Part shown: positions 1,749 to 9,826 of the stretch, piece by piece
Numbering within the stretch: position 1 is the stretch's first letter
Layout: each line of letters starts with the position of its first letter
Source: a virus
Reading direction: 5' to 3' (one strand)
Length of the DNA stretch: 29,302 nucleotides
Virus record (IMG/VR): IMGVR_UViG_3300034104_000589
Location: 1-29,302 of that record
Notes under the pieces: model-generated
The model's input: only the letters and a program-made list of their open reading frames with translations
Databases searched by the model: none
Told to the model about the DNA's origin: nothing
Program-made: the position numbers and the translations under genes

Positions 1749-1760
1749 GTTTACTTCTGT

Positions 1761-1784
1761 AGCAAGTTCTAACGAGCTTGCTAT
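1761..1784 (+). other. hairpin between genes
   Basis: TAGCAAG (1761-1767) pairs perfectly with CTTGCTA (1778-1784) around a 10-base loop, just after the stop of the MPNWC gene and about 35 bases before the next start. No T-run follows, so it is not a classic intrinsic terminator. It may be an RNA-processing or stability element separating the early genes from the VWA/AAA+ block. Confidence 0.35.
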
Positions 1785-1817
1785 GGTGGCAATCTTGCCG
1801 TAACTGTGGAGAAACAA

Positions 1818-2255
1818 GTGGAAACTACTTCCTCACCCTTGTATGCTGCTGCAACTGAATCGTTAGTTTCAGATGCTTCAGCTACTAGCACCTTTGAGAA
1901 GATGATACAGGTTGCGTATACGCATAGCACTGTAGACACATTTACAAAGGAATTGAAAGACACTGAGAAGCTGATCAAGAAAGATTTTGAAATAAGTTCT
2001 ATGCCTGGACCTTGGCGATCAGCTAAATCAGTTATCCATACTGCTATGAAGCTCAGTATCAGCTTAGTTGATGATAACGGCAGCTATTGCGGTAAGACTT
2101 ATCTTCAGAACAAGATCAAGGAAGCTAAACCTGACAAAGAAGAAGTCACTAACCAACAGTACATTGACAAAGTTCTCAAGCTTCTTATGGATATTCCAGA
2201 GTATCTGGATGCTAAGACTATCCATGCTGAAGTTAAGAAGATGATCTTCTCTTAA
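1818..2255 (+). CDS. hypothetical protein of the VWA/AAA+ block, 146 residues
   Basis: I do not recognise the family. The sequence is helical and Lys/Glu-rich (for example TKELKDTEKLIKKDFEISS and a C-terminal segment ending HAEVKKMIFS), soluble and without Cys motifs. I place the start at GTG 1818 because GGAGA lies six bases before it; a GTG at 1806 in the same frame would add four residues but has no ribosome binding site. It ends three bases before the VWA gene, so the two are almost certainly co-translated. Position suggests it is a partner, adaptor or substrate of the VWA/AAA+ pair, by context alone. Confidence 0.72.
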   Translation: METTSSPLYAAATESLVSDASATSTFEKMIQVAYTHSTVDTFTKELKDTEKLIKKDFEISSMPGPWRSAKSVIHTAMKLSISLVDDNGSYCGKTYLQNKIKEAKPDKEEVTNQQYIDKVLKLLMDIPEYLDAKTIHAEVKKMIFS

Positions 2256-2258
2256 TCC

Positions 2259-4055
2259 ATGCTAACAAAAGCTATCGAAGTTCAGAAATACATTAGAGCC
2301 AGTGCAGGTAGGGCTGGTATATCTATAGTATTTGAAGACGCTAATGAGCCTAGGCATGATGGCAAGACCATCTATCTACCTAGGATTACTCATAAAACCA
2401 CTGACTTAGAACTACAGCAGTTGATGGCATCTGTTGACCACGAGGTTGCACATGATCGCTTTAGCAGCTTTGAAGTTCTTAAGAACAAAGACCTTAATCC
2501 TAAAGGTATCTTGATGTTTGTATGGAACTTCATGGAAGATTCCCGTATCAATGTCATAGAAGCCAAGGAGTATCAGGGTTTCAGAGAGAACTGGGATGAC
2601 TGTAGTTCAATGCTGGTAGAACAAATCCTTGTTCGTGCTGGTAAGAATACATCAGCCATTGCAAAGCTCACTGTAGCCATGATGTGTTGGGAGTCTGATC
2701 TAACAGCAGCTACTTTTCCAAAGATTGGGCTTGCTGCATTATCAACAACTCCCAACAAAAAGATAATGGATGTTCTTAATAACTTCTCTGATCGTCTTAT
2801 TCATTGTCATTCGATACTGGATAAGAAGATAGGTACGGAAGCTACGTACAAACTAGCAGAAGACATCCTCAAAGAACTAGGTGATGAGTGTCCTAAAGAA
2901 CTACCAATACCAGCTAAACCCAAAGAAGGTAGCGGTGAAGGCAAGATGGAAGGAACAACCACAGAGAAAGCAGATCAAGAAGGAACTGGTGAGGCTGCTG
3001 AAGCTAGTAAGTCCGAAGGTAAAGAATCTACAGATCCAGCTACTGAGTACAAAGTCATTGACATTGTGCTCACACCTGAAGACATAGAGTCCTTCTCAAT
3101 GTCAATGCCTGATGAAGGCTCAGAGATGAGCAAGACAGGTGTTAACTTTGCACCAACTGGTTCTAGAGGTGAGTGGGACATGACCGACTACTCAGAGTTT
3201 ATTGTTGTTGATTACCCACGTAGAAAGGGTGAAGACAAATACTTTGAAGCTGGTAGTTACAGAAGAAACTTCTTGCAAGAATATGAGAAACGGATAACTC
3301 CAAACCTTGTATCACAAGAGAACTTTGCACAGCAAGTACGTAGACTCATTCAGATCAGAGCTAAGTCACAGACTCAATATGGTGTTAAGAAGGGGAAGCT
3401 AGATCAGTCTCGACTATCTCGTATCTGTTTCAATGCACCAGGCTTCAATGAGCGTGTGTTCAAGAACAAGATAGATAACAAGACACTGGATGCTGCTATC
3501 ACAGTATTGGTAGACATGTCTGGTTCAATGGGTGGAGACAAAGTGCTAAACGCTTTAGCTTCTACATTGCTTGTTAACGAAGTTTGTTCAACACTAAACA
3601 TACCTCTTGAGATACTTGGTTTCACTGATGCTAGTGGAGGATTCTCAGAACCTAAACCATTGATGTTTATATACAAAGGCTTCAATGATCTAAGGGTAAA
3701 CGATGATAGCCTCAAAGAATATTTCGCTCTCAGTAGTGGATTTATGGTTGGTAATCCTGATGGTGAGAATATTTTGTGGGCTTATGATCGTTTGAACAAA
3801 CGTAAAGAGAAGAAGAAGCTATTGATTGTGATGTCTGATGGTTCACCAGCAGCATCTAAGTCATCAAGTGGCTTAGAACAATTCACAGAGAAAGTAATCA
3901 AAGAGATAGAAGCATCGAAGTCTGTTGACATATACGGATTAGGTTTGTGTAGTGATGCAGTTACGCACTACTACAAAGCCCACAGTGTTGTCAGAGAACC
4001 AAATGAAATCCCAAGTAAGTTGATTGAGTTAATAGAAAGGAAAATTCTTAAATGA
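2259..4055 (+). CDS. VWA-domain protein with N-terminal HEVAH motif (CobT/DUF2201-like), 598 residues
   Basis: The N-terminal domain holds HEVAH (His61, Glu62, His65), a zincin-type zinc motif, then MEDSRIN around residue 95, which could supply a further ligand. Residues of about 215-255 are a charged, low-complexity linker. The C-terminal part is a von Willebrand A domain with the metal-site motif DMSGS (Asp419, Ser421, Ser423), a later TDAS, and MSDGSP near residue 530. This layout resembles CobT-like and DUF2201-type (metallopeptidase plus VWA) proteins, which act with MoxR-family ATPases as chaperones or metal-insertion machines. The next gene is such an ATPase and overlaps by four bases. 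The phage role is unknown; cobalamin synthesis is unlikely because no other pathway gene is present. Confidence 0.85.
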   Translation: MLTKAIEVQKYIRASAGRAGISIVFEDANEPRHDGKTIYLPRITHKTTDLELQQLMASVDHEVAHDRFSSFEVLKNKDLNPKGILMFVWNFMEDSRINVIEAKEYQGFRENWDDCSSMLVEQILVRAGKNTSAIAKLTVAMMCWESDLTAATFPKIGLAALSTTPNKKIMDVLNNFSDRLIHCHSILDKKIGTEATYKLAEDILKELGDECPKELPIPAKPKEGSGEGKMEGTTTEKADQEGTGEAAEASKSEGKESTDPATEYKVIDIVLTPEDIESFSMSMPDEGSEMSKTGVNFAPTGSRGEWDMTDYSEFIVVDYPRRKGEDKYFEAGSYRRNFLQEYEKRITPNLVSQENFAQQVRRLIQIRAKSQTQYGVKKGKLDQSRLSRICFNAPGFNERVFKNKIDNKTLDAAITVLVDMSGSMGGDKVLNALASTLLVNEVCSTLNIPLEILGFTDASGGFSEPKPLMFIYKGFNDLRVNDDSLKEYFALSSGFMVGNPDGENILWAYDRLNKRKEKKKLLIVMSDGSPAASKSSSGLEQFTEKVIKEIEASKSVDIYGLGLCSDAVTHYYKAHSVVREPNEIPSKLIELIERKILK

Positions 4056-5176
4056 CAACTGTAGTAAAACCACCATCACCGAAGGTGGAAGATCTTGTTA
4101 AGAAAGCTTTGAAAGAAGCTCTTGACAAACGTAAGCCACCAAAAACAACAGAGGCATCGACAGATGTTTCATGTGAAACAACCATTGATGATCCTAAAGA
4201 ACTTATGGCATCTGCACCACACTCAGCCCTCAAACCTAATCAAGTCTACCTCTCTGAGGTTATCGGTCAGCCAGTTGACCACGATTTTGGAATCACTGTG
4301 TTCCAAGAATCTGATTGGGATGAGCGTATAGCTGCATTTGTTCCTAGTATCAATTCAACCTATGTCATTGATACAAAACTTGCATCTGACATTCTTCAAG
4401 CATGGGAGTTAAATGAGAAAGTACTTTGCTACGGTCCTACAGGGGCTGGTAAATCTAGTCTTATTGAGCAGTTGTGTGCTCGTACTTATCGTCCTTTTGT
4501 TCGGGTTAATTGCACTGGGGATATGGATTCCTCAATGATCTTTGGTCAGCTAACAGCTAAGGATGGTTCAACAGTATGGGTAGATGGTGCAGCAACAGAA
4601 GCAGTCAAGTATGGTGCTGTGTTTGCATGGGATGAGTGGGATGTAACTCCTCCAGAGATCTCAATGGGTCTACAGTGGCTCTTAGAAGACGATGGCAAGC
4701 TCTTCTTGAAGGAGATGCCAGGTAGTACCAAGGACAAGCAGATCATTCCTCACAAGGACTTTAGGCTTGTTGCTATTGGTAACACGCAAGGTCAGGGTGA
4801 TGACACAGGTGCTCATGCAGGTACTAACGTACAGAACTCTGCAACTCTAGATAGGTTTGGTACAGCAGTATTCGTTGACTATCTACCAGCAGCAGTGGAA
4901 GAGAAGATCATCACATCTAAGTATCCAACAACAGTCACTGGTAAAGCAGCTAAGGAACTTGTCAAACTTGCTAACCTTATTCGTCAAGGTTACAAGTCAG
5001 GTCAGTTCAGTCTCACTGTTTCACCACGTACCTTGTTTGGTATCTGTAGAAAAGTAAGTGTCGGTGCTACTCTCAAGTCAGCATTCACACTTGTATACCT
5101 CAACAAATTGAACGACACACAACGTAAAGTTGCTGGCGAGCTTTTTGCTAAGGTATATGGAACCTCCGAAAACTAA
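4052..5176 (+). CDS. MoxR/CobS-like AAA+ ATPase, 374 residues
   Basis: An AAA+ ATPase of the MoxR/CobS kind. It has Walker A GPTGAGKS at residues 128-135 (Lys134), Walker B FAWDEWD with Asp194 and Glu195, a sensor-1-like GNTQGQGDD segment near residue 245, and the C-terminal VSPRT segment with an arginine where sensor 2 is expected. The first 60 residues are a Lys- and Pro-rich extension. The start overlaps the stop of the VWA gene (ATGA) and AAAGGA lies upstream. MoxR ATPases normally work with VWA partners to remodel proteins or insert metals, and the adjacent gene supplies that partner. A hairpin follows at 5191, ending the block. Confidence 0.9.
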   Translation: MTTVVKPPSPKVEDLVKKALKEALDKRKPPKTTEASTDVSCETTIDDPKELMASAPHSALKPNQVYLSEVIGQPVDHDFGITVFQESDWDERIAAFVPSINSTYVIDTKLASDILQAWELNEKVLCYGPTGAGKSSLIEQLCARTYRPFVRVNCTGDMDSSMIFGQLTAKDGSTVWVDGAATEAVKYGAVFAWDEWDVTPPEISMGLQWLLEDDGKLFLKEMPGSTKDKQIIPHKDFRLVAIGNTQGQGDDTGAHAGTNVQNSATLDRFGTAVFVDYLPAAVEEKIITSKYPTTVTGKAAKELVKLANLIRQGYKSGQFSLTVSPRTLFGICRKVSVGATLKSAFTLVYLNKLNDTQRKVAGELFAKVYGTSEN

Positions 5177-5190
5177 AACATAAAACCACA

Positions 5191-5224
5191 TAGTCTTCCT
5201 GTAATGGGAAGGCTATCTATTTTG
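5191..5224 (+). terminator. probable intrinsic terminator after the VWA/AAA+ block
   Basis: TAGTCTTCC (5191-5199) pairs with GGAAGGCTA (5207-5215) with one G-U pair, giving a nine-pair stem and a seven-base loop. It is followed by TCTATTTTG, a modest T-rich tract. It lies between the ATPase stop (5176) and the primase start (5241), a reasonable place to separate the chaperone-like block from the replication genes. The T-tract is interrupted, so termination may be partial. Confidence 0.6.
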
Positions 5225-5240: not shown

Positions 5241-6035
5241 ATGATTGATAGAAAACTAATCCTAGCAAATGCTCCTAGTAACATGGGACAGCAGATCCAT
5301 GTGAACCATATTGGATGCTCAGCTGGTGATGACACTAAGCGTAGGTTGTATATCAAGCGTACAGAGAAGGGATTGGTGGCGTATTGCCACCATTGCACTG
5401 AGTCTGGCTTTGCTTCAGACGGACTATCCCAAGACAGATTGTCTACCTGGGTGAACAAGAAAGCAACAACAACTACAGCAGCTACAAAGCCGCGTCTAGC
5501 GGCACTCAGTACCGAAGGTACGGTGTGGCTACGCAGCAACTTCTGCAACGCAGAAGACAGCAACTTCAACGGCATAGAAGGGGAAAGGCACAAAGTAGCC
5601 TTGACCCTCTACAACCCAGAACAACAGCCGATAGGCTGGCAGATACGCAATCTCAAAGCAGAACCAAAGTACATCACGTACTACACCAACAGCAACTCCA
5701 AAGGAGATGCAAGCTGGTTTCATAGCAGCGGTAAAACATTGGTGCTTTGTGAAGATTACCTCAGTGCATACAGAGTACACAAGAACACAAAGCTCAGCTC
5801 TGTAGCGTTACTAAGAACAACTATCTCAGATAGAACACTAGCTCAAATCTATGAGCTTGAGTTCGACACAGTATGTATTTGGCTAGACCCAGATGAAGCA
5901 GGAATGGAGGGAACAACTAAAGCATTTAAGAAACTACAACACTTCTTACCAACAGAAACCAAACTAGCTATGTTTGGCATAGATAAAGAACCAAAAGAAT
6001 GCACACCAGCAGAGCTTGTGAGCATACTAATTTAA
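5241..6035 (+). CDS. DNA primase, zinc-binding plus TOPRIM (T7 gp4 primase half), 264 residues
   Basis: Makes RNA primers for lagging-strand synthesis. The N-terminal zinc motif has His23/Cys26 and Cys49-x2-Cys52 (YCHHC). The TOPRIM domain has the catalytic glutamate in LVLCEDYLSAY (Glu171) and the metal-binding pair in WLDPDEAG (Asp216, Asp218). These match the primase half of T7 gp4, but here the chain stops at residue 264 and the helicase is a separate gene nine bases on. The linker between the zinc and RNA-polymerase parts (about residues 73-83) is Thr/Ala-rich. The ribosome binding site before ATG 5241 is weak. Confidence 0.9.
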   Translation: MIDRKLILANAPSNMGQQIHVNHIGCSAGDDTKRRLYIKRTEKGLVAYCHHCTESGFASDGLSQDRLSTWVNKKATTTTAATKPRLAALSTEGTVWLRSNFCNAEDSNFNGIEGERHKVALTLYNPEQQPIGWQIRNLKAEPKYITYYTNSNSKGDASWFHSSGKTLVLCEDYLSAYRVHKNTKLSSVALLRTTISDRTLAQIYELEFDTVCIWLDPDEAGMEGTTKAFKKLQHFLPTETKLAMFGIDKEPKECTPAELVSILI

Positions 6036-6044
6036 AGGAAATAG

Positions 6045-7307
6045 ATGGACTACGATGTTCTATACCTTTGCGCTAAGAGCAAAGAGAACCTCTCAAAGTA
6101 CAGGCGGTACATCAAACCGCATGTAGTTATGAAAGAAACCAACACCATCCTTGACGGGATGGACAAGTACTACAAAACATTTCCCTCAGTTACAGAGTTT
6201 GCTTGGGACTCATTCACTGCATTCCTAATAGCAGATCAGAGTAAGCGTCTTACAGACGATTCCATTGTGAAGCTACGCATGATGCTTACTAAAGCAAGAG
6301 CGTTTGTTCCACACCATGCACATGAAGAAGTTGTCAAAACTCTCATTGAGCTAGACTACTTGGCTTTGATCATGGAGGAATGCGAGAAAGTCAAAGAAGG
6401 CTCTAGTGACTTGGAGCATGTACACATACTAGCAACCAACGCACTCAAAGATGTAGAAAGGTACATAGAAAAAGATGAGTTATTTGTATCTGCTGACTTG
6501 TCTGCTATTGCTGACAGGATCACTAGCTCTGGTTATGAATGGAGACTGGATGCGCTCAATCGTTCTCTTGGTCCTCTACGTATTGGGAATTTTGTTATTG
6601 TCGCTGCTCGTGTAGAAGTAGGTAAGACTACATTCCTAGCGAGTGAGGTGAGCTACCTAGCACAGCAGTTACCAAAGGACAGACCAGTTGTGTGGGTCAA
6701 CAACGAAGAGGAATCATCAGTTGTATTCTTTAGAATTGTTCAAGCAGCACTAGGGATAGAAAGCAAAACAATTATTGCTGACTCCAAGAAAGCAATGGTT
6801 GACTACGCAGCATTGATGGGTGGTAACAAAGACAAGATCCGTGTTACTAAGGACATGAACAACGTACGTGACCTTGAGACATTGTTCAGAGAAGTTAACC
6901 CAGGACTGATCATCTTTGATCAGCTCGACAAGGTTGATGGCTTCAAGTCAGACGAGCGTGAGGATCTTAAGCTGGGCAAGATATACAAGTGGGCAAGAGA
7001 ACTTGCAAGATCGTATGGTCCAGTTATTGCAGCATCACAATTATCTGCGTCAGCAGTAGAAATGAAAGACCCACCATTCATAGGCTTGGATGCACTGCGT
7101 GGCTCCAAGACTGACAAGCCAGGTGAAGCAGATGTAGTAATAACAATTGGCAAGTACAAAGAACCAAAGAGTCCCGAAGAAGAAATGATACGTACCATCA
7201 ATGTTCCTAAGAACAAACTACCAGGAGGAGGAAGCAAACAAGTCGAGTCAGATAGACACGGACAATTTCTAGTAACCATCGACCCCATCAGGGCTAGATA
7301 CGAGTAA
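6045..7307 (+). CDS. replicative DNA helicase, DnaB-like, 420 residues
   Basis: A RecA-fold hexameric helicase. The N-terminal 150 residues are helical, as in DnaB. The motor has Walker A AARVEVGKT at residues 187-195 (Lys194; DnaB usually has a proline where Val190 stands), the glutamate cluster NNEEES near residue 220, Walker B LIIFDQLDKV with Asp292, and AASQLSAS, the conserved H3-type segment. The FDQLDKV form is typical of T7-like phage helicases. AAAGGA precedes the ATG. With the separate primase it does the job of the fused T7 gp4 at the fork together with the polymerase downstream. Confidence 0.92.
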   Translation: MDYDVLYLCAKSKENLSKYRRYIKPHVVMKETNTILDGMDKYYKTFPSVTEFAWDSFTAFLIADQSKRLTDDSIVKLRMMLTKARAFVPHHAHEEVVKTLIELDYLALIMEECEKVKEGSSDLEHVHILATNALKDVERYIEKDELFVSADLSAIADRITSSGYEWRLDALNRSLGPLRIGNFVIVAARVEVGKTTFLASEVSYLAQQLPKDRPVVWVNNEEESSVVFFRIVQAALGIESKTIIADSKKAMVDYAALMGGNKDKIRVTKDMNNVRDLETLFREVNPGLIIFDQLDKVDGFKSDEREDLKLGKIYKWARELARSYGPVIAASQLSASAVEMKDPPFIGLDALRGSKTDKPGEADVVITIGKYKEPKSPEEEMIRTINVPKNKLPGGGSKQVESDRHGQFLVTIDPIRARYE

Positions 7308-7333: not shown

Positions 7334-9274
7334 ATGACCAAAACATTTATAGCTATTGACGTTGAGACAACGCTCAATGGCGATGATGACGTAGGACTAG
7401 CTCATCCTATGCACCCAGACAACAGAGCTATAGCCTTTGGGCTATGTGGCAGCAGTGATGTAACCAATACATTCACTACGTATGACCAGGATAAGTTTGA
7501 GTACTTACTACGAGTACAAAGACCAGATGCTTTTATCTGTGGACACAACTTGTCTTTTGATTTGATGTATCTCTACAAGACTAGCACTGACCTACAGTAT
7601 GAACTACAAAGACGTAAGATTTGGGATACACAGTTGGCAGAGTACATCTTAAGTGCTCAACAGACTAAGTTCTCAAGCCTCGATGAGTTGTCAACCAAGT
7701 ATGGCTTGCCTATCAAGGATGATGGGATCAAGAAATACTTTCAAGCAGGTCTTGGCTCTGACAAGATTCCACCTGAAGAACTAATCCCATACCTAGAGCA
7801 AGATGTTCAGAACACTGTGCAGATTGCAATGATGCAATACAAACGAGCGATAGAACAAGATCAGCTACCACTCATACTCTCTCAGATGGAAGCACTCCAT
7901 GCAACAACAGAGATGCAGTTCAATGGCTTGCACATTGACAAAGCAAACCTTGATGAGTACACAGTAGAAGTAGTCAACATGTATGTTGAATGCAAACTTG
8001 ACTTGGAAGAGTTGTCTATCAAACATGCAATCGAAGACATCAACAGTCCTAAGCAGTGGTCACAGTTTTTCTTTGGAGGTAAGAAGAAGATACGTGTGAA
8101 AGAAGAAGTGGGTCTATACAAGAATGGCAAGACGAAGTACAAGCTCATGGATAAAACCATAGATGTAAAGCCATTCATCAGGTACACACCAGACCCAGAC
8201 AAAGTGTCTGCTAAGACAGGACAGATCTCAGTAGATGACTCTGTGTTGAATGACATGCTCAAGCATACGTTCGATCCAGAAGCCATCAAGATCATTGAGA
8301 AACTACTGGAGTATCGTGAGCTATCAAAGCAGCTATCAACCTATGTACAAGGGCTTAGCAAGCACGTTATAGGTGACTTCATACATGGTAAGTTGAATCA
8401 CACAGCAACTGTTACAGGTCGCTTGTCATCAACCAATCCTAATTTACAAAACATCAGCAACAACCCTATCAAACAAATCTTTAATTCAAGGTTTAATGAT
8501 GGTGTGATTGTCGAGGTTGACTTCAATCAACTAGAAGTTGTAGCTCTAGCACATGTTACTAGAGACAAACAACTCATCAAAGATATATCAGGTGGCATTG
8601 ATATACACAGTGCTTTGTACGAAGGTATGTTTGGTAGACCGCCAACAAAGGAGGAACGTAAACCATTCAAGGCAAGAACATTTCAATTGATCTATGGTGC
8701 TGGTGCTAAAGCCATTGCTAAACAAGCAGGATGTAGCCTAGATGAGGCTAAAAAATTTGTAGATGTGTTCTACACACGCTATCCCCAGGTAGGAGAATGG
8801 CACACAAAGTTTGCAGAAGAGGTAGAAAGCAAGTCTACATACGAACTAGATGATGATGGATTCCGAGAGAAAGTAAAGACGTTTGTTTTAAACACTGAGA
8901 CAGGACGCAAGTTTTTGTTTAAGGAATATTTCAACGAGAGTAGTTGGTCTAGTAGGACCTACAATTTCAGCCCAACTGAATTGAAGAACTACCCGATCCA
9001 AGGTCTAGCAACTGGCGATATTGTCCCAATGATGTTGGGAGTTATCTTCAGATGTATAGAAGGCAGAGATAACGTGAAGATGGTTAACACTATTCACGAC
9101 TCTATTATGTTTGATGTCCAAAGCTATGCTGCGGATGATTTTATAAAGGAGATTACAGGAATACTCAAAGACACGCACAAGTACTTTGAGGAAAGATTTA
9201 AAGTGCCGTTGGCTCTGAAGCTCAATGCAGGAGCATCAATCGGTAAAAATTGGTTTGATATGAAAGAACTTTGA
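7334..9274 (+). CDS. DNA polymerase, family A with 3'-5' proofreading exonuclease, 646 residues
   Basis: The replicative polymerase. The exonuclease domain has Exo I DVET (Asp9, Glu11), Exo II GHNLSFD (Asn72, Asp76) and Exo III YLEQD (Tyr153, Asp157), all intact, so proofreading is expected. The polymerase domain has TGRLSSTNPNLQNI near residue 360, motif A VDFNQLEVVALA with Asp396, motif B RTFQLIYGAG, and motif C IHDS (His588, Asp589). Motif C in family A normally reads HDE; here Ser590 replaces the glutamate. Length is somewhat below T7 gp5. GGAAAA precedes the ATG at 7334. It lies between the helicase and the SSB-like gene. Confidence 0.95.
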   Translation: MTKTFIAIDVETTLNGDDDVGLAHPMHPDNRAIAFGLCGSSDVTNTFTTYDQDKFEYLLRVQRPDAFICGHNLSFDLMYLYKTSTDLQYELQRRKIWDTQLAEYILSAQQTKFSSLDELSTKYGLPIKDDGIKKYFQAGLGSDKIPPEELIPYLEQDVQNTVQIAMMQYKRAIEQDQLPLILSQMEALHATTEMQFNGLHIDKANLDEYTVEVVNMYVECKLDLEELSIKHAIEDINSPKQWSQFFFGGKKKIRVKEEVGLYKNGKTKYKLMDKTIDVKPFIRYTPDPDKVSAKTGQISVDDSVLNDMLKHTFDPEAIKIIEKLLEYRELSKQLSTYVQGLSKHVIGDFIHGKLNHTATVTGRLSSTNPNLQNISNNPIKQIFNSRFNDGVIVEVDFNQLEVVALAHVTRDKQLIKDISGGIDIHSALYEGMFGRPPTKEERKPFKARTFQLIYGAGAKAIAKQAGCSLDEAKKFVDVFYTRYPQVGEWHTKFAEEVESKSTYELDDDGFREKVKTFVLNTETGRKFLFKEYFNESSWSSRTYNFSPTELKNYPIQGLATGDIVPMMLGVIFRCIEGRDNVKMVNTIHDSIMFDVQSYAADDFIKEITGILKDTHKYFEERFKVPLALKLNAGASIGKNWFDMKEL

Positions 9275-9796: not shown

Positions 9797-9826
9797 GGGG
9801 GCGTAGCAATACGCTCCCATTTTTTT
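9797..9826 (+). terminator. intrinsic terminator ending the replication operon
   Basis: GGGGGCGTA (9797-9805) pairs with TACGCTCCC (9810-9818) with one G-U pair, closed by a GCAA (GNRA) tetraloop and followed by seven T residues (9820-9826). It lies just after the SSB-like gene stop at 9791 and 17 bases before the next start. This is the clearest regulatory signal in the window. Confidence 0.92.

Follow-up and report, generated by a model that had tools for sequence, protein, structure and literature searches.

The locus described here raises the question of what a phage does with a gene pair that resembles the cobaltochelatase genes cobT and cobS. The pair lies, together with a small upstream gene, at positions 1818–5176 of a 29,302-nucleotide stretch of viral DNA (IMG/VR record IMGVR_UViG_3300034104_000589), which we refer to as the window. 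The phage is an ICP2-like podovirus, its polymerase being nearest (about 34% identity) to those of Vibrio phages of the ICP2 kind. In gene order, the three proteins are called U, V and A. We propose that V and A may constitute a phage CobT/CobS-like remodelling machine with a zincin-like domain, whose client would be a replication or recombination protein and for which U would be a partner specific to this podovirus clade. This reading, to which we assign a probability of roughly 45%, builds on observed homology, intact motifs, conservation and synteny and on a predicted fold. The block comprises the following features.

1818–2255, plus strand: U, a family-less protein of 145 amino acids; GTG start, homologues favouring 1818 over an alternative GTG at 1806
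2259–4055, plus strand: V, 598 amino acids, with zincin-like N-domain, acidic linker and VWA domain (CobT homology; AlphaFold2 model)
2439–2453, plus strand: HEVAH of V (H61–H65), in helix 49–68 of the models; HExxH in 80 of 80 distinct full-length clade proteins
2526–2540, plus strand: N90-x-x-E93-D94 of V, in helix 84–104, present in 80 of 80 in the clade; E93 is the candidate third metal ligand
2913–3053, plus strand: acidic, Gly-rich linker of V (about residues 219–265), of low confidence (predicted local distance difference test score, pLDDT, <50)
3513–3527, plus strand: metal-ion-dependent adhesion site (MIDAS) of V, DxSxS (D419, S421, S423), without variation across 59 sequences from phages and cells
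4052–5176, plus strand: A, a CobS-like MoxR-class AAA+ ATPase of 374 amino acids (TIGR01650, AAA_5 and PDB CobS matches)
4433–4456, plus strand: Walker A of A, GPTGAGKS (128–135); G128, P129, T130, G133, K134 and S135 invariant in 89 clade ATPases
4625–4642, plus strand: Walker B of A, AWDEWD (192–197); WDEW invariant in 89 clade ATPases

V and A are homologues of CobT and CobS

Judged by sequence, V and A can firmly be assigned, domain by domain, as homologues of two cobaltochelatase subunits over their whole length, V of CobT and A of CobS. V matches the Pfam family CobT_C (PF11775) with 94.2 bits at a gathering cut-off of 21, as do 11 of 11 members of the V-family alignment A1, and it matches TIGR01651 over residues 9–589 (E 1e-30) with 107 bits, which is below the equivalog cut-off of 759 bits. 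Likewise, A is recognized by the CobS model TIGR01650 (E 3.4e-37) with 128 bits, below the equivalog cut-off of 559 bits, by AAA_5 with 61 bits, over the cut-off, and by the CobS structure 9ujv in the PDB (E 5e-36). Among the families named for a search in the original prediction, CobT was matched and the MoxR class fits, but DUF2201 and ViaA were not recovered: an hmmscan of V and 10 relatives gave no match to DUF2201 (PF13203) up to E 1, and ViaA is not among the Pfam or NCBIfam matches of V. Single-sequence scans with the CobT proteins of ICP2 and T5S1 retrieved no viral contigs.

The AlphaFold2 model of V (pLDDT 77) consists of the N-domain, a disordered acidic linker and the VWA domain. 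The best PDB matches of the VWA fold are the NorQ-bound VWA domain of NorD and the MIDAS domain of midasin, both of which have AAA+ partners. Based on its full motif set and the adjacent VWA gene, A is a MoxR-class AAA+ ATPase. In addition to the Walker motifs, sensor-1 N244, the Arg finger R268 and sensor-2 R326 are invariant in the 89 clade sequences, variation within the motifs being confined to G131, A132 and both ends of the Walker B string. The claims that V has both HEVAH and an intact MIDAS, that A has complete Walker motifs and that the two represent a MoxR-class ATPase with a VWA co-chaperone are thus borne out by the motifs and by the homology to CobS and CobT. In an ATPase tree, one branch (support 100/99) divides phage from cellular CobS; the tree includes several very long phage branches, and its cellular sequences come almost exclusively from Alphaproteobacteria and their relatives.

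A zincin-like motif in the N-domain of V

Phage members of the family normally have HExxH, whereas cellular CobT proteins lack it (0 of 77), the aligned stretch there typically resembling ADxxALxxxHD; contrary to the earlier reading, HEVAH is not an addition in this phage. Because the scans made with alignment A1 used a pattern containing HExxH, conservation figures were drawn from other scans. HExxH...NxxED was present in 71 of 71 (U-based scan) and 26 of 26 (first scan) distinct V proteins, all found by search patterns without HExxH, which argues that HEVAH is not a chance occurrence. An SSU5-type scan gave HExxH in 26 of 30 proteins, the remainder mostly stemming from short or interrupted reading frames in which the N-terminus is missing. 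The extended motif also occurs in Cobavirinae phage T5S1, CRP-810, SSU5-like and Rhizobium phages, the 'peptidase' of cyanophage S-PM2, pelagiphage HTVC008M, Ochrobactrum phage OC, a Microcystis phage and a Gordonia phage. V of ICP2 keeps HExxH in the form HECYH, with Val in place of the Glu of the ED pair.

In the predicted fold, two short strands precede the HExxH helix, and the next long helix, 84–104, bears Asn90, Glu93 and Asp94; a second model of the V N-domain reached a pLDDT of 94. Such a succession of HExxH helix and Glu helix would be expected of a small gluzincin, in which case Glu93 would provide the third ligand. The conservation of the motif among phage homologues and a plausible modelled fold agree with what had been anticipated for HEVAH, and they make zinc binding and proteolysis by V plausible.

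Replication genes lie beside the pair in different phages

The position of the block was analysed in the window, which contains the following further features, and in other phages.

1757–1786, plus strand: upstream hairpin with a 13-bp stem; the segment 1750–1800 folds at -22.3 kcal/mol (z -5.8; 0 of 200 shuffles as good)
5190–5216, plus strand: downstream hairpin (z -3.7) with a T-rich tail after the stem, likely the terminator of the U-V-A block
5241–6035, plus strand: primase, directly 3' of the U-V-A block (PHROG/Pfam matches)
6045–7307, plus strand: DnaB-like helicase (PHROG/Pfam matches)
7334–9274, plus strand: PolA-type DNA polymerase (PHROG/Pfam matches)

U and V are separated by 3 bases and V and A overlap in ATGA, so that the coupling of the three genes read from the sequence earlier agrees with the open reading frame coordinates; the two bounding hairpins noted at that time are real as well. 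U-V-A forms part of the plus-strand replication cluster, and the genes for virion and lysis proteins are encoded by the minus strand beyond 13.1 kb. Of 76 distinct contigs of the clade that are long enough to show it, 75 have the order U-V-A-primase, followed by the helicase; the polymerase comes next in every clade contig that reaches that far, giving the order U-V-A-primase-DnaB-PolA.

Outside the clade, the V-A pair lies near genes for a ligase and the PolIII α subunit in SSU5, Rhizobium phages and nickie, near PolIII α in ANB28, and, in S-PM2, HTVC008M and OC, with gp46/47 on one side and the genes of the clamp and its loader (gp45/44/62) on the other. DNA polymerase, primase, ligase or clamp genes are also located beside the pair in ICP2, T5S1 and a Stenotrophomonas phage. 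In a haloarchaeal virus, a vWA/AAA pair has been assigned to a replication/accessory module (PMC7911831). The shared synteny across different polymerase systems, which was judged without a formal chance model and includes phage groups some of which may share ancestry in this region, suggests a link of V-A to replication.

The CobS/NirQ-like ATPases of Listeria phage LP-124 and Alteromonas phage PT11-V19 were considered as relatives of the pair and rejected since their partner is a DUF7192 protein lacking VWA and HExxH. These two phages have a different AAA+ pair in which DUF7192 takes the place of the VWA protein.

Two further elements of the window lie outside the block. A strong terminator-like hairpin (GGGGGCGTAGCAATACGCTCCC, followed by a T run) is present at 9797–9818, 3' of the polymerase gene cluster, and a GC-richer region containing palindromic segments lies between small open reading frames at 734–882, for which an Rfam search gave no match.

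U accompanies the pair within one clade

U is strongly conserved, with the invariant motif MPxxWRSxKS...NGxxxGKxxxQ in an alignment of 28 sequences, and is predicted to be nearly all helical. The model comes from a single job in which U and the V N-domain were joined by reading through the U stop codon, and it informs on the folds only, not on contact. Searches from either side led to the same association: U adjoins V in every clade contig with upstream sequence when V is the query, and V is directly downstream at 80 of 80 U loci when U is the query, with A also present in all 77 loci that reach far enough. The expectation that the small gene travels with the pair thus holds within the clade but fails beyond it, as no U gene adjoins the pairs in ICP2, SSU5-like and Rhizobium phages, nickie, ANB28 and phages of the Cobavirinae type. 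No family match of U was obtained in Pfam, PHROG or PADLOC, and tblastn of four different U members against phage records gave no credible match. Comparison of U by hhalign with the plus-strand open reading frames (60–900 amino acids) of 12 other CobT-bearing loci, a set that took in gp40 of ICP2 and long CobS N-termini, reached a best probability of 1.8%. More U-like proteins, from uncultured phages, are contained in a viral structure library. Because U is missing beside pairs outside the clade, it is not a general adaptor or target of V-A. We infer that U is a clade-specific partner which might serve as adaptor, inhibitor or substrate.

Possible functions of the U-V-A block

In the model that we favour, A would assemble into an AAA+ ring on which V would dock via its MIDAS/VWA domain, by analogy with the homologous CobS-CobT and NorQ-NorD pairs. 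Once docked, V would pass a client on to the zincin-like domain at its N-terminus; this domain probably binds zinc by means of H61, H65 and E93 and would cut or grip the client. The latter would most likely be a DNA replication or recombination protein of phage or host, and U would act in one of the clade-specific capacities named above; ring, zinc, proteolysis, client and the role of U are all inferred. Several findings weigh against this model. Synteny with replication genes is no proof of a replication client, and in CRP-810 polymerase, primase and helicase are all unannotated within the 10.6 kb examined. HExxH was lost in nickie (SEISK) and ANB28 (REVST), both of which otherwise retain V and still have CobS next to it, and zincin activity is thus not always needed. 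Asp60 and Glu93 are invariant also in cellular CobT despite the missing HExxH, for which reason E93 is no specific proof of a zinc site. A Foldseek comparison of the N-domain with the PDB gave nothing significant, the most probable match being the small gluzincin selecase (0.66, E 3), and the sole zincin-named matches in the viral structure library were phage 'Lethal factor' proteins (E 0.08 and weaker). Nickie and ANB28 represent a natural experiment on the need for the protease-like site.

The same losses, the retention of E93 and D60 in cellular CobT, the absence of HExxH from all cellular CobT sampled and the lack of a confident zincin fold match would suit a non-catalytic scaffold, V-A then being a pure AAA+/vWA remodeller like cellular CobT. 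We regard this as rather unlikely since all 80 distinct proteins of the clade keep HExxH, as do several phage groups unrelated to it, which is more than a scaffold would demand. It is conceivable, if on balance doubtful, that several unrelated groups of tailed phages share an AAA+-driven metalloprotease acting on the replisome or its assembly, to which the clade added U, and that cellular CobT is a relative that lost the protease site. An alternative proposed for jumbo phages is a chaperone-protease for virion assembly or maturation (PMC7824862), with p618/p892 of the Acidianus two-tailed virus as an analogy, and the architecture is indeed as published (N-terminal metallopeptidase-like domain, vWA, MoxR neighbour). 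Virion assembly is, however, weakly supported because the block is situated within the replication cluster, with the virion and lysis genes on the other strand, and T4-like phages place the pair among gp46/47 and gp45/44/62; we therefore consider it improbable. Equally improbable is that the machine serves host takeover or counter-defence by dismantling or degrading a host protein with U conferring specificity. Such a role would accord with U being clade-specific and conserved, and the site upstream of replication genes would suit early expression, but no defence-related family except generic AAA was matched and gene order and neighbours are stable in the clade, unlike those of most counter-defence genes.

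The least probable of the alternatives is that the pair works as a genuine cobaltochelatase motor, using CobN of the host to increase the cobalamin available to ribonucleotide reductase, as proposed for viral CobST (PMC8651126). Apart from the CobS/CobT homology, it could draw on the ribonucleotide reductase family PF02867 in T5S1 and in the clade contig G007 (15663–16832, minus strand), but G007 was the only one of ten clade records with PF02867, and the presence of HExxH in phage V but not in cellular CobT also speaks against it. Searches of 12 records from the clade, ICP2 and T5S1 and of 8 SSU5-like records revealed no CobN, and ten of these records contain no CbiX. A control search detected no CobN in E. 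coli, which hosts SSU5-like relatives (one record lists K-12), and none was detected in a Xenorhabdus genome carrying such a relative. Given its absence from the phages tested and from E. coli, cobalt insertion is unlikely as a general role of the phage pair, and the metal delivery suggested in the original prediction is not supported. CobST without CobN appears to be common: no CobN match was obtained in 10 of the 17 CobT-encoding bacterial genomes searched (from SAR11, SAR86, Sphingomonadales, Maricaulis and others), several of them incomplete assemblies; in a Caulobacter control, CobT was present and CobN was not matched. Cellular CobST may have a second job.

Relation to known systems

Phage CobST and phage MoxR-vWA-metallopeptidase pairs have been published before; new here are the finding that a third gene is obligate, the division between phage and cellular proteins by HExxH, and the synteny with replication genes. 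V and A share with cobaltochelatase CobT and CobS (e.g., 9uka, 9ujv) full-length homology, the layout of N-domain, acidic linker and VWA domain, and the AAA+ motifs, but differ in the HExxH of V, scores far under the equivalog cut-offs, the missing CobN and a separate side of the ATPase tree. The MoxR-vWA pair with N-terminal metallopeptidase of jumbo phages, for which Iyer et al. (2021) proposed virion assembly, matches ours in gene pair and domain architecture as judged from the published description rather than sequence; the present pair, however, belongs to a podovirus clade of roughly 45 kb with U as obligate third gene and a replication cluster around it. In Vibrio phage ICP2 (Zobellviridae), gp41-gp42 resemble V-A in order, in HExxH and in primase, helicase and PolA downstream, yet no relative of U was found near the pair, including the 94-residue gp40 directly upstream, and the ED Glu is replaced as described above. 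S-PM2, a T4-like cyanophage (Kyanoviridae), has HEVGH...NVIEDARIE, a MIDAS and a CobS-like ATPase amid replication genes, but employs a gp43/44/45/62 polymerase system and has no gene annotated or positioned like U. A study of archaeal tailed viruses, which reported cobST to be widespread in tailed viruses and proposed hijacking of host CobN, held the cyanophage 'peptidase' label to be mistaken (PMC8651126). Since the S-PM2 protein is both CobT-like and HExxH-bearing, its sequence suggests that the label is not baseless. NorQ-NorD, RavA-ViaA and midasin, which combine a VWA fold with a MoxR-class AAA+ partner, may be viewed as functional analogues with different clients. We found no literature on the expression timing of cyanophage cobS or on ICP2 CobT.

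Implications

The family to which the V-A pair belongs is widespread in phages and probably misnamed. Virome studies often tally phage cobS and cobT among the auxiliary metabolic genes for vitamin B12, and should these genes encode AAA+/vWA remodellers whose protease-like domain is linked to DNA replication, many of these B12 counts would be wrong. If our reading is true, a step of phage replication that is common but has gone unstudied would be open to tests in tractable phages such as ICP2 and the SSU5-like phages of E. coli.

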